From assembly GCA_020851375.1 (NCBI GenBank), contig JADZCV010000014.1:1-64000 (forward strand): a DNA stretch of 64,000 bases, in the 5' to 3' direction. The position numbers and the translations under genes are program-made. This document shows, in pieces, positions 34,143 to 38,832 of this stretch. The DNA comes from Nitrospirota bacterium (GTDB lineage: Bacteria; Nitrospirota; 9FT-COMBO-42-15; HDB-SIOI813). Positions within the stretch are counted from its first letter, which is position 1, and every line of letters begins with the position of its first letter. The notes beneath the pieces were generated by a model. It was not told where the DNA came from and did not search any database. It was given only the letters and a program-made list of their open reading frames with translations.

Positions 34143-35312
34143 ATGAACATTCATGAGTTTCAGGCAAAGTCGTTATTTTCGCAATACGGGATACCGGTCC
34201 CTTTTGGAAAGGCCGTATACTCTGTTGATGAGGCTGAGCAGGTTGCCAAGGAAATCAAGACTGATGTTGCTGTTGTCAAGGCCCAGATACACGCTGGTGG
34301 AAGGGGAAAGGCAGGCGGCGTCAAGCTTGCCAAAGATAAGAAGGATGTCGGAAAGTTCGCCAATGAGATTTTGGGCAAGGTGCTTGTAACCCATCAGACA
34401 GGCCCTGAAGGCAGGTGTGTCAGGAAGTTGCTGGTTGAAGAGGGTGTCAATATCGCGAAGGAGCTTTACCTGAGTCTCCTCGTGGACAGGACATACAGCC
34501 GGCCTGTCTTCATTACAAGCCTCGAAGGCGGGATGGAGATAGAAGAGGTTGCGGCACGGACACCGGAGAAGGTCATTAAAGAATACATTGACCCCTGTGC
34601 CGGCTTCCAGCAGTTCAACGGCCGCAATATGGCCTTCAAACTTGGCCTGGAGCCGGATATCATTAAGCAGTTTGTATCAATGGCAGGGAAGCTGTACAGG
34701 TTGTTTGTGGAAAAAGGGGCATCACTCGTTGAAATAAACCCCCTTGTCATTACAAAGGACAACAGGCTAATTGCACTCGATGCAAAAATCAGCTTCGACG
34801 ACAATTCATTGTTCAGGCACGAGGACATCAAGGCATTCCGTGACCTTGATGAGGAAGAAGAGCTTGAGATTGAGGCATCAAAACACGGGCTGAACTATGT
34901 CAAGTTAAACGGCAACATAGGCTGTATGGTAAACGGTGCCGGGCTTGCAATGGCAACGATGGATGTTATAAAGCTCGCAGGGAGTGAGCCGGCAAACTTC
35001 CTCGATGTAGGCGGCGGCGCATCAAAAGAGACAGTAAAGCACGCCTTTCAGATACTCCTTGCAGATAAGAACGTCAAAGGTGTATTCGTTAACATATTCG
35101 GCGGGATAGTTCGCTGCGAGAGGATTGCCGGCGGCATCATGGAAGCTGCGAAAGAGGTAAAACTCACAGTGCCGCTTGTTGTAAGGCTGGATGGTACCAA
35201 TGCGAAGGAAGGGCTTGAGATGCTCCGGAGTTCGGGACTGAACCTCGAGGTCGCATCCACCATATGGGAAGGGGCACAGAAGATCGTTAAGCTGGCTGGA
35301 AGCAGTAAATAA
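34143..35312 (+). CDS. sucC: Succinyl-CoA synthetase (ADP-forming) beta subunit
   Basis: A 389-residue ATP-grasp protein. MNIHEFQAKSLFSQYGIPVPFG opens it as usual; KAQIHAGGRGKAGGVKLA binds nucleotide, and the C-terminal flavodoxin-like part has NFLDVGGGA and FVNIFGGIVRCE. With SucD it makes ATP from succinyl-CoA, or runs in reverse in a reductive TCA cycle. The specificity segment looks ADP-type but this is not decisive. GGAG precedes the ATG; sucD follows after 27 bases. Confidence 0.95.
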   Translation: MNIHEFQAKSLFSQYGIPVPFGKAVYSVDEAEQVAKEIKTDVAVVKAQIHAGGRGKAGGVKLAKDKKDVGKFANEILGKVLVTHQTGPEGRCVRKLLVEEGVNIAKELYLSLLVDRTYSRPVFITSLEGGMEIEEVAARTPEKVIKEYIDPCAGFQQFNGRNMAFKLGLEPDIIKQFVSMAGKLYRLFVEKGASLVEINPLVITKDNRLIALDAKISFDDNSLFRHEDIKAFRDLDEEEELEIEASKHGLNYVKLNGNIGCMVNGAGLAMATMDVIKLAGSEPANFLDVGGGASKETVKHAFQILLADKNVKGVFVNIFGGIVRCERIAGGIMEAAKEVKLTVPLVVRLDGTNAKEGLEMLRSSGLNLEVASTIWEGAQKIVKLAGSSK

Positions 35313-35339
35313 TCTGTAAATTAATGAGAGGATATCAAA

Positions 35340-36215
35340 ATGAGTATACTTGTCAATAAATCTACACGGCTTATGGTACAGGGGATCACAGGCAAGGAGG
35401 GTTCATTCCACACGAGTGCCTGCATGGAGTATGGCACCAATATAGTTGCCGGAGTTACCCCGGGCAAAGGGGGCATGGATTTTGAGGGTGTGCCTGTATT
35501 CAATACCGTGAGTGAGGCAGTTGCAGCAACGAAACCCAATGTCTCAATGATCTTTGTTCCTCCCGGATTTGCAGGAGATGCCATCATGGAGTCTGTTGAT
35601 GCAGGCATCCCGCTTGTGGTCTGTATTACTGAAGGGATCCCTGTCAATGATATGGTGCAGGTAAAGAGATTCATGGCTGGAAGGAACAGCAGGCTTATCG
35701 GACCCAATTGTCCCGGCATTATCACACCCGAGGAATGCAAGATAGGGATAATGCCCGGCTTCATCCATAAAAAGGGACGCGTTGGTGTCATATCAAGAAG
35801 CGGCACACTTACTTATGAGGCGGTGTGGCAGATAACAAAGGTCGGCCTAGGGCAATCAACCTGCATTGGTATCGGAGGTGACCCTGTCAATGGAACAAAC
35901 TTCATTGACCTCCTTGAGATGTTCCAGAACGACAAAGAGACAGATGCCATTGTCATGATAGGTGAGATCGGCGGCGACGCAGAGGAGCATGCTGCAGAAT
36001 TTATCAGGAGTAATGTCTCAAAGCCTGTGATCGGCTTTATTGCAGGCATCACGGCACCACCAGGAAGGCGCATGGGACACGCAGGCGCCATTATATCCGG
36101 CGGAAAAGGGACAGCATCAGAAAAGATGGCTGCCATGGAAAAGGCCGGCATTAATGTCGTGCGTAACCCGGCCTTAATCGGTCAGACAGTAGCTGAGTCA
36201 CTTCAGAAATCGTAA
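35340..36215 (+). CDS. sucD: Succinyl-CoA synthetase alpha subunit
   Basis: A 291-residue protein. The CoA-binding Rossmann segment is [13 protein letters not shown], then GVTPGKGG, and the phospho-His lies in [33 protein letters not shown] is typical of this subunit. It carries the phosphorylated His between succinyl-phosphate and ADP. It is the second gene of the two-gene unit, closed by a hairpin terminator at 36269. Confidence 0.95.
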
Positions 36216-36268: not shown

Positions 36269-36300
36269 GCCGGCCAGACAGGCCGGCGCTGCATATTTTT
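36269..36300 (+). terminator. Intrinsic terminator after sucD
   Basis: GCCGGCC, loop AGACA, GGCCGGC (36269-36287), then GCTGCATATTTTT. The T-run runs into the first DnaA-box-like motif. Confidence 0.7.
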
Positions 36301-36349
36301 CCACAACCTATCCACAGATTATCCGCACATTTTCCACCATGTATCCACA
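36297..36349 (+). promoter_or_regulatory. Five DnaA-box-like 9-mers at exact 11-bp steps
   Basis: TTTTCCACA (36297), CTATCCACA (36308), TTATCCGCA (36319), TTTTCCACC (36330) and GTATCCACA (36341) follow each other with two-base gaps, all on the same strand and one helical turn apart. Each is within one or two bases of the bacterial DnaA box TTATCCACA. They lie 50 bases before a sigma-70 promoter and 180 bases before the ribonucleotide reductase gene. The rest of the 313-base gap (36216-36528) holds only the terminator and the promoter. Confidence 0.65.
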
Positions 36350-36399
36350 AAATAATGGGTATATCGAATAAATAAATCGCAATATGTAGTTTTTTCCCC

Positions 36400-36428
36400 T
36401 TGACAAGAAATCCAAACAGGTGTAAACT
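36400..36428 (+). promoter_or_regulatory. Promoter of nrdJ
   Basis: TTGACA (36400-36405), a 17-base spacer and TAAACT (36423-36428), about 100 bases before the ATG; AGGAGG at 36519-36524 is the ribosome site. Confidence 0.55.
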
Positions 36429-36528
36429 TTTTTTCGCATTTTAGGATTTGATTTTTTAACTATTCTGAGCGCGAGCACCCACATATTTTTTCATAAATTA
36501 ATCTATTTTCTTTTACAGGAGGTCTCTT

Positions 36529-38832
36529 ATGCCCACAAGAGAAGTTTTAGCCCCGGTTTTTTCCCAGAACGCAATCAAAGTCCTTGAGAAAAGGTACCTT
36601 GCAAAGAATGACAAGGGACAGGTAACAGAAACACCTGCAGAGATGTTCAGGAGGGTTGCGCGGAACATAGCCCAGGCAGACTTCATCTATGACAGCAATG
36701 CAGGTGCGGCACAGAGTGAGGAAAAGTTCTACCAGCTCATGGTTAAAAAGGAATTCCTGCCAAACTCACCCACTCTGATGAACGCGGGCAGGGAACTTCA
36801 GCAGTTATCTGCATGCTTTGTCCTTCCTATAGAAGATTCCATGGATGGAATATTTGAATCCGTAAAGCAGGCCGCTATCATACACAAGTCCGGAGGCGGG
36901 ACTGGCTTCTCCTTTTCAAGGCTGAGACCAAAGAACGATGTGGTTCGTACTACAGGCGGCATTGCCTCAGGCCCTATCTCGTTTATGAAGGTATTTAACC
37001 ATGCAACTGAGGCTGTAAAGCAGGGTGGAACAAGGCGCGGTGCAAATATGGGCATACTGAGGGTAGACCACCCTGATATAACAGAATTCATAGATTGTAA
37101 GATCAATGAGAGTGATGTGACAAACTTCAATATAAGTGTGGCTGTTACTGATAAATTCATGGAGGCTGTTGCAAAAGATGAGTTGTATGACCTGTTAAGT
37201 CCGAGGACAGGGGAGCCGGTCTCAAAACTCCGCGCAAGGGAGATATTTGACAAGATAGCAAATAACGCATGGAAAAACGGAGAGCCGGGGCTGTTTTTCA
37301 TAGATACGACAAACAGGGCAAACCCGACTCCACACGCAGGCGGCATAGAGGCTACAAACCCATGCGGCGAACAGCCTCTTATCCCGTTTGAGTCCTGCAA
37401 CCTCGGCAGTATAAATCTTGAGGTTCATGTAACCCACATGGATGGGAGGGCTGTTGTTGACTGGGACAGGCTTGAGCGGACAGTCAGAACATCGGTTCAC
37501 TTCCTCGATAATGTTATTGATATGAACCACTACCCTATTTCACAGATAGAGGAGGTTACAAAGGCAAATCGTAAGATAGGCCTTGGGGTAATGGGTTTTG
37601 CAAGGATGCTCTATAAACTTGGAATAGCATATGACTCAACAGAAGGGATAGAGTGCGCCCGCAATGTAATGCGGTTTATCAGGGACATGGGACACAGTGA
37701 GTCAGAGAGGGTGTCGGACAGACGTGGTGTATTCCCCAACTGGAAGGGCTCAGCATATGAGAAACAGGGGAAGAGGCTCAGAAATGCCTATATTACTACA
37801 GTCGCCCCTACAGGGACTCTTAGCATGATTGCAGACACATCCGGAGGTTGTGAACCTGAGTTCAGTCTTATATGGTATAAGAATGTAATGGGAGGAGAGC
37901 ACCTTCCATATGTTCAGGAATCATTCATAGAAACCGCCATGTCTGAGGGATTCTGGAGCGAAGAGCTTATCAATAAGATAATAGCAAACCATGGATCGGT
38001 ACGGGGGATTAGCGAAGTACCGGCAAAATGGCAGACTATTTTTGCTACGGCCCATGATGTTTCGTCCGAATGGCATGTACGTATGCAGTCTGCATTCCAG
38101 GAATACACGGACAGCGCGGTTTCAAAAACAATCAATATGCCTTTAGGCGCCACAATAGATGATGTTAAAGACGCCTATGTCCTCGCCTATAAACTCGGCT
38201 GTAAAGGGATTACAGTATACAGGGATGGCAGCCGCTCTGAACAGGTAATGAATGTAGGAAAGAGTGGGGACAAGGCCAGGACAGAGATAAATATCAAACA
38301 GGCGCCGGAAATTACTCAGCAGGATGACCGCAGGGAGACCAGGCCGTCGCTTCCTGTTATCGAACCAAGACCAAGGCCCAAGACCACAACCGGCGTTACA
38401 AATAAGATGAAGACATCCTGCGGCGACCTTTATGTAACTATCAATGAAGATGAAGACGGAAGGCCCTTTGAGGTGTTTTGCAACATGGGAAAGGCAGGCG
38501 GGTGTGAGGGCTCCCAGAATGAGGCTATTGGAAGGCTTATATCCCTTGCATTCAGGAGCGGCGTATCACCACAATCCATTATAAGACAGTTGATCGGCAT
38601 AAGATGCAATCAACCGTATGGACTTGGCAAGAACATAATTCACTCATGCGCTGATGCGATTTCAAAGGCAGTGCTTGAGTACATGATGGCTAAACAGGAA
38701 AATGCCGGGCCTGAAGTGAATTTTCAGTTTGACAGGCGTATTGGGTCTGCATGTCCTGATTGCGGATGCGAGATGGAGTTCTCAGAAGGGTGTGAGAAGT
38801 GCCATTTCTGCGGCCACTCCAAGTGCTACTAA
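36529..38832 (+). CDS. nrdJ: Vitamin B12-dependent (class II) ribonucleotide reductase
   Basis: A 767-residue enzyme reducing ribonucleoside diphosphates with adenosylcobalamin, with no oxygen needed. Core motifs are LSACFVLPIEDSMDGIF, the active-site block NPCGEQPLIPFESCNLGSINL and TVAPTGTLSMIADTSGGCEPE. A TSCPD domain (MKTSCGDLYVTINEDEDGRPF) and a C-terminal zinc ribbon (CPDCGCEMEF, CEKCHFCGHSKC) follow, the latter holding thiols that re-reduce the active site. The N-terminus has no ATP cone, so dATP overall control may be missing. A DnaA-box-like array lies upstream. Confidence 0.95.
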   Translation: MPTREVLAPVFSQNAIKVLEKRYLAKNDKGQVTETPAEMFRRVARNIAQADFIYDSNAGAAQSEEKFYQLMVKKEFLPNSPTLMNAGRELQQLSACFVLPIEDSMDGIFESVKQAAIIHKSGGGTGFSFSRLRPKNDVVRTTGGIASGPISFMKVFNHATEAVKQGGTRRGANMGILRVDHPDITEFIDCKINESDVTNFNISVAVTDKFMEAVAKDELYDLLSPRTGEPVSKLRAREIFDKIANNAWKNGEPGLFFIDTTNRANPTPHAGGIEATNPCGEQPLIPFESCNLGSINLEVHVTHMDGRAVVDWDRLERTVRTSVHFLDNVIDMNHYPISQIEEVTKANRKIGLGVMGFARMLYKLGIAYDSTEGIECARNVMRFIRDMGHSESERVSDRRGVFPNWKGSAYEKQGKRLRNAYITTVAPTGTLSMIADTSGGCEPEFSLIWYKNVMGGEHLPYVQESFIETAMSEGFWSEELINKIIANHGSVRGISEVPAKWQTIFATAHDVSSEWHVRMQSAFQEYTDSAVSKTINMPLGATIDDVKDAYVLAYKLGCKGITVYRDGSRSEQVMNVGKSGDKARTEINIKQAPEITQQDDRRETRPSLPVIEPRPRPKTTTGVTNKMKTSCGDLYVTINEDEDGRPFEVFCNMGKAGGCEGSQNEAIGRLISLAFRSGVSPQSIIRQLIGIRCNQPYGLGKNIIHSCADAISKAVLEYMMAKQENAGPEVNFQFDRRIGSACPDCGCEMEFSEGCEKCHFCGHSKCY

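Follow-up and report, generated by a model that had tools for sequence, protein, structure and literature searches.

In E. coli, the control of ribonucleotide reductase (RNR) genes by DnaA via closely spaced boxes is already known: ChIP-seq places DnaA at the nrdA and nrdD promoters, and in vivo the protein prefers box pairs 2-3 bp apart, including those at nrdA and nrdD (PMC11317965). At nrdAB, DnaA can act as activator or repressor, according to its abundance and bound nucleotide (PMC8203912). Sites for NrdR at bacterial RNR promoters come as a pair of boxes with a common spacer of 15-16 bp (PMC12051234), and the boxes described overlap the RNA polymerase site (PMC12176259). Detailed study of DnaA control of RNR genes has so far been carried out mainly in E. 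coli.

We analysed a 64-kb window (the whole stretch of 64,000 nucleotides, to which coordinates refer unless a contig is named) from the genome (2.5 Mb in 49 contigs, 98% complete) of a member of the Nitrospirota, which are little studied and known mostly from environmental sequence. The main RNR gene of this genome, the class II gene nrdJ, is preceded by an array of DnaA-like boxes. As with the double boxes of E. coli nrdAB and nrdDG, boxes lie 2-3 bp apart upstream of an RNR gene (PMC11317965, PMC8203912); however, the E. coli genes belong to RNR classes I and III and carry a box pair (three boxes at nrdAB according to a review, PMC8203912), whereas array-bearing Nitrospirota have 3-5 boxes in one register upstream of a class II gene and, at the locus studied here, the last box overlaps an NrdR box. 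At E. coli oriC, closely spaced weak DnaA sites (cited in PMC11317965) likewise stand head to tail a few bp apart, many of them imperfect, and are suited to cooperative binding, but the present array is tied to a promoter and an RNR gene and has no adjacent DnaA-trio run. It is a variation on the known DnaA-controlled RNR promoter, not a separate kind of system.

The nrdJ gene and its upstream region

The nrdJ gene (36529-38832, + strand) encodes a protein of 767 aa, which the sequence-only reading had named a B12-dependent RNR. This holds, as the product scores 1136.9 bits against the NF006417 equivalog, above the cut-off of 961, and 742.1 bits against TIGR02504 (cut-off 399.95), and it also matches PF02867, PF00317 and PF12637. 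A putative ribosome-binding site, AGGAGG (36517-36522, + strand), lies 6 nt before the ATG. A genome search with PF02867 returned nrdJ and one shorter paralogue on contig C44, and nothing else; no class III NrdD was found in the genome search. The paralogue (G000:C44:20749-22443, a 581-codon frame) is a class II RNR with 54% identity to NrdJ, and its upstream region has neither an array nor a clear NrdR pair. The nrdJ promoter is immediately preceded by both subunit genes of a succinyl-CoA ligase-type enzyme (34143-36215), which share its strand; a sucD-like end was also seen upstream of nrdJ in the same-family loci L013, L014, L015 and L023 and was not seen in other same-family loci.

Re-reading of the sequence bears out the five 9-mers resembling TTATCCACA on the + strand, each with one or two mismatches to it, and the exact 11-bp step between them: box 1, TTTTCCACA (36297-36305); box 2, CTATCCACA (36308-36316); box 3, TTATCCGCA (36319-36327); box 4, TTTTCCACC (36330-36338); and box 5, GTATCCACA (36341-36349). 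Where at least two TTATCCACA-like boxes on one strand, 2 or 3 bp apart, are taken to define closely spaced boxes, the locus has five. The array had been called gapless, which is incorrect, since each 9-bp box is followed by a 2-bp linker; it had also been placed on one face of the helix, which is approximately right, with a slow drift of about 17 degrees per 11-bp step (at 10.5 bp per turn).

The five boxes match the consensus TTWTCCACA at 41/45 positions, compared with a best five-box score of 29 in 100 dinucleotide shuffles of the window. The second-best array with an 11-bp step in the window scores 28, and the top five-box arrays at other steps (8-10 and 12-14 bp) in the 64 kb score 26-29. 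Box pairs with an 11-bp step were observed four times in the window, against 0.07 expected. Taken singly, boxes are about as frequent in the window as expected (18 against 17.2, at one mismatch or fewer), and so it is the phasing that constitutes the signal. Counted over the whole genome (2.5 Mb), three boxes in a row at 0 or 1 mismatch occur at the nrdJ array and nowhere else.

We scored the region for an NrdR operator, with a consensus of two 16-bp boxes (aCaCwAtATaTwGtgt) an integer number of turns apart and a spacer usually of 15-16 bp. Two such boxes are present, NrdR box 1, CCACAAAATAATGGGT, an imperfect palindrome that is kept in relatives (36345-36360), and NrdR box 2, TCGCAATATGTAGTTT (36377-36392), 32 bp apart from start to start with a 16-bp spacer. 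The pair scores 33/42, while 200 shuffles reach at most 28.5. The nrdR gene itself (TIGR00244, 205.6 bits) is on the same contig as nrdJ, at C14:74164-74601, and its upstream region has no array. NrdR box 1 overlaps DnaA-like box 5 by 5 bp; the fifth motif is indeed present as a member of the array, but its CCACA is common to the NrdR box, which the sequence-only reading had overlooked.

Downstream of the NrdR pair lies a sigma70-type promoter (36400-36428, + strand). Its -35 hexamer, TTGACA (36400-36405), is present in relatives and stands 50 bp past the end of the array, and its -10 hexamer, TAAACT (36423-36428), follows after a 17-bp spacer and reads TA[A/C/G]ACT in nearly all same-family loci. 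From the -10 position, the nrdJ start site would be near 36435, which would put the centre of box 5 at about -90. The locus shares with the NrdR-box pairs of bacterial RNR promoters the two 16-bp boxes, the 15-16 bp spacer and an nrdR gene in the genome (PMC12051234, PMC12176259). Unlike the described boxes, which sit on the polymerase site (PMC12176259), neither NrdR box here overlaps the RNA polymerase site: the pair precedes the -35, and its first box shares bases with a DnaA-like box.

Conservation and promoter position of the array

Relatives of NrdJ were collected from named MAGs and from a set of 99 genomes of the phylum, and genomes present under two locus ids (e.g., L011 and L079) were counted once. 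Divergent boxes were already known when the scan motif was loosened to TTWTNNACA. The doubt that the array might lack conservation upstream of nrdJ is dispelled: the 11-bp step recurs in 9/9 same-family genomes (L078-L086), with 4-5 boxes in one register, as well as in other Nitrospirota lineages, although in L078, from the same genus, the array is degenerate. Boxes 3 and 4 keep their register in the relatives. Family-wide, the information per column is 1.53 bits for the boxes, 0.79 for the linkers and 0.34 for the flank upstream of the array, the random expectation being 0.31; position 7 of the box is variable within the family, being A, G, C or T in some boxes.

The same fused layout is found in Manganitrophaceae and other Nitrospirota MAGs (L017-L022, L024, L025, L041, L052, L057), and family f3 (L089, L099, L112) has the layout of the window's family. 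Linkers are 2 bp, with one 3-bp linker in f3 and in L017/L052. In families f5, f11, f13 and f19, three AACA- or TTCACA-type boxes follow each other at an 11-bp step, and the NrdR boxes overlap the core promoter, apart from the array. The array appears to have been kept through deep divergence within the Nitrospirota, with NrdR boxes at differing places relative to it.

In per-locus shuffles, p is at the floor (1/301) or twice the floor for most array loci, uncorrected for the number of loci, and weaker (0.017-0.053) for L099, L091, L111, L117, L119 and L052. Two arrays are not significant, that of L089 (p = 0.076), whose register is broken by the 3-bp linker, and that of L120 (p = 0.96), which was recognised only by analogy and position. 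No array was recognised at nrdJ in the Nitrospirota families f4, f6, f8, f10, f15, f16 and f17. In a small sample of nrdJ relatives from other phyla, in which some genes are perhaps inside operons, there was no convincing array; a few reach p near 0.01 but without the consensus. We rejected the array as a general trait of all nrdJ genes, since it is lacking at the C44 copy and unconvincing in the small sample from other phyla.

On the NrdJ tree, which has long branches and an arbitrary root, array-bearing genes appear in three places, namely f1 with the Manganitrophaceae-type loci, f3, and f5/f11/f13/f19, the last within a clade shared with families in which no array was recognised. The tree is compatible both with a single old origin and later losses and with parallel gains.

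Array end and -35 are separated by 49-51 bp in 24/24 fused loci and by 47 bp in 6/6 separate loci, an overall range of 47-51 bp for the 30 loci measured (in L020, the canonical TTGACA was used as the -35 and not the overlapping TTGACC, which gives a distance of 45). From array to start codon, the fused loci span 115-477 bp. With a nearly constant distance to the -35 but a changing one to the gene, the array is bound in position to the promoter, and its place hardly shifts where the NrdR boxes sit elsewhere. This bears on the idea that the array is a DnaA titration locus or a datA-like locus for the hydrolysis of DnaA-ATP, which came to lie near nrdJ by happenstance. It is the strongest phased box run of the genome, as such a locus might be; however, its position is locked to the nrdJ -35 across lineages despite varying gene distances and upstream neighbours, a lock that a reservoir would not need, and we regard this idea as highly improbable.

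The same loci speak to whether the array is an extended NrdR operator, in which NrdR oligomers would contact CCAC(A) at each helical turn and DnaA would be uninvolved. In f1, f3 and the Manganitrophaceae-type loci, the array does run into NrdR box 1, and CCACA is common to both. However, the repeats are not palindromic and keep the 5' TTWT of the DnaA box, which is missing from the NrdR box, and known NrdR sites are pairs of boxes (PMC12051234). In f5, f11, f13 and f19, moreover, the NrdR boxes sit on the core promoter and the array keeps its place 47 bp before the -35, and so the two are separable. An extended NrdR operator is thus very improbable; because it is separate from the NrdR boxes in these families, the array is an element of its own. 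A chance origin is ruled out by the shuffles, the other step sizes and the conservation. In summary, the array is a real, conserved and informative regulatory element.

The putative origin and the ligand of the array

One full-length DnaA was found in the genome. Upstream of dnaA, CTATCCACA is followed by CTA-TTA-ATA-CTA-CTA-CTA, a DnaA-trio-like run, with an adjoining AT-rich stretch, and we take this region, by analogy, as the putative oriC. Its box is identical to box 2 of the array, so that the host has both a DnaA and, with oriC assigned by analogy, an origin box of the array type. A different DnaA box at the origin had been named as a finding that would speak against DnaA binding; instead, the putative oriC carries CTATCCACA, and box pairs with 2-bp linkers also occur upstream of dnaA in the phylum. 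The array itself was rejected as the origin: there is no trio run beside it, and the box-plus-trio region sits upstream of dnaA.

Many Nitrospirota dnaA upstream regions show a same-strand box pair with a 2-bp gap and, near the start codon, a third box in the opposite orientation (e.g., L107 6300-6700), and about 250 bp further upstream in those loci, a box is followed by a DnaA-trio-like run of CTA repeats. The box type of the dnaA region changes from CCACA/CAACA in the window's family to TTAACA/AAACA in f5, f11, f13 and f19, and by eye these four families tend to AACA-type boxes at both the dnaA region and nrdJ. Strict covariation between the two sites is suggestive but is broken by G001, which has TTATCAACA beside the trio run, yet CCACA boxes at nrdJ.

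DnaA is by far the likeliest ligand of the array, judged from the match to the oriC box, the paired boxes of the dnaA regions and the spacing preference of E. coli DnaA. Against this reading count the variable position 7, which is unusual for strong DnaA boxes, the lack of strict covariation between the nrdJ and dnaA-region boxes, and the array-less families. Binding of the array by a different regulator that recognises a TTATCCACA-like site would fit the loose position 7, and the link to DnaA is drawn from motif likeness, spacing and comparative data only; nevertheless, the consensus, the linker lengths, the oriC and dnaA-region boxes and the RNR target all point to DnaA, which makes another regulator very unlikely.

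Proposed action on nrdJ transcription

We consider it probable that the array and the NrdR boxes form a composite promoter element of nrdJ, with a site for a DnaA oligomer that acts on RNA polymerase under NrdR feedback; the binding, activation and antagonism that this entails are what we infer from sequence. On the 3-5 mostly imperfect, head-to-tail boxes, a short DnaA oligomer would assemble about 50 bp upstream of the -35, probably in the ATP form, since weak, closely spaced boxes need cooperativity. An upstream activator near -90 can contact RNA polymerase, and the oligomer would act on the polymerase, most likely as an activator that raises nrdJ expression. NrdR loaded with dATP would occupy, as a tetramer, its own pair of boxes, which shares bases with the last DnaA box and fills the space from there towards the -35. 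Bound to NrdR box 1, it would mask half of box 5, and the complex would stand between DnaA and the polymerase; we therefore propose that DnaA turns nrdJ on and NrdR turns it off: NrdR-dATP would exclude, displace or insulate DnaA, as a dNTP feedback brake. A more specific form of this, to which we lean only tentatively and slightly less than we lean away, is a two-input promoter at which the DnaA oligomer and the NrdR tetramer compete for one overlapping site, such that initiator activity and dATP level are compared on the DNA.

The sign of the DnaA effect on nrdJ is uncertain, because E. coli DnaA also represses nrdAB (PMC8203912). By that precedent, in which abundant DnaA-ATP is the repressing form (PMC8203912), DnaA on the array could mainly repress nrdJ, or set its level rather than its timing. 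However, with 47-51 bp between it and the -35, the array stands clear of the core promoter, so that simple polymerase occlusion is not expected unless the oligomer spreads, and we consider this unlikely, although less so than the other alternatives to activation by DnaA under NrdR feedback.

Since relatives hold the array at a fixed distance from the promoter, the locus suggests a link between replication control and dNTP supply at the nrdJ promoter. If a phylum so distant conserves as many as five boxes at a class II RNR promoter, the coupling of initiator activity to dNTPs would be ancient or would have arisen more than once, whatever the RNR class, and the overlap of array and NrdR operator would give a concrete wiring for combining replication demand with nucleotide feedback. 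We found no description of a fused DnaA-NrdR operator in the open-access full-text literature, and its novelty is provisional.

A second cluster of DnaA boxes lies outside the window, at G000:C26:351-370 (- strand), and reads TTATCCACAGGTTATCCACT nnnnn TGTGGGAAA. Two of its boxes are direct repeats with a 2-bp gap, the third is inverted, and the intergenic stretch around them is poorly conserved. Clusters of this type are present in seven genomes of the family, including that of the window (L127, L128, L132, L140, L141, L142 and L144), near locus position 1501, and mostly precede a small conserved ORF and, after it, an ORF that resembles a GAF domain (domains assigned by eye). This cluster may serve as a further target of DnaA or as a datA/DARS-like site.
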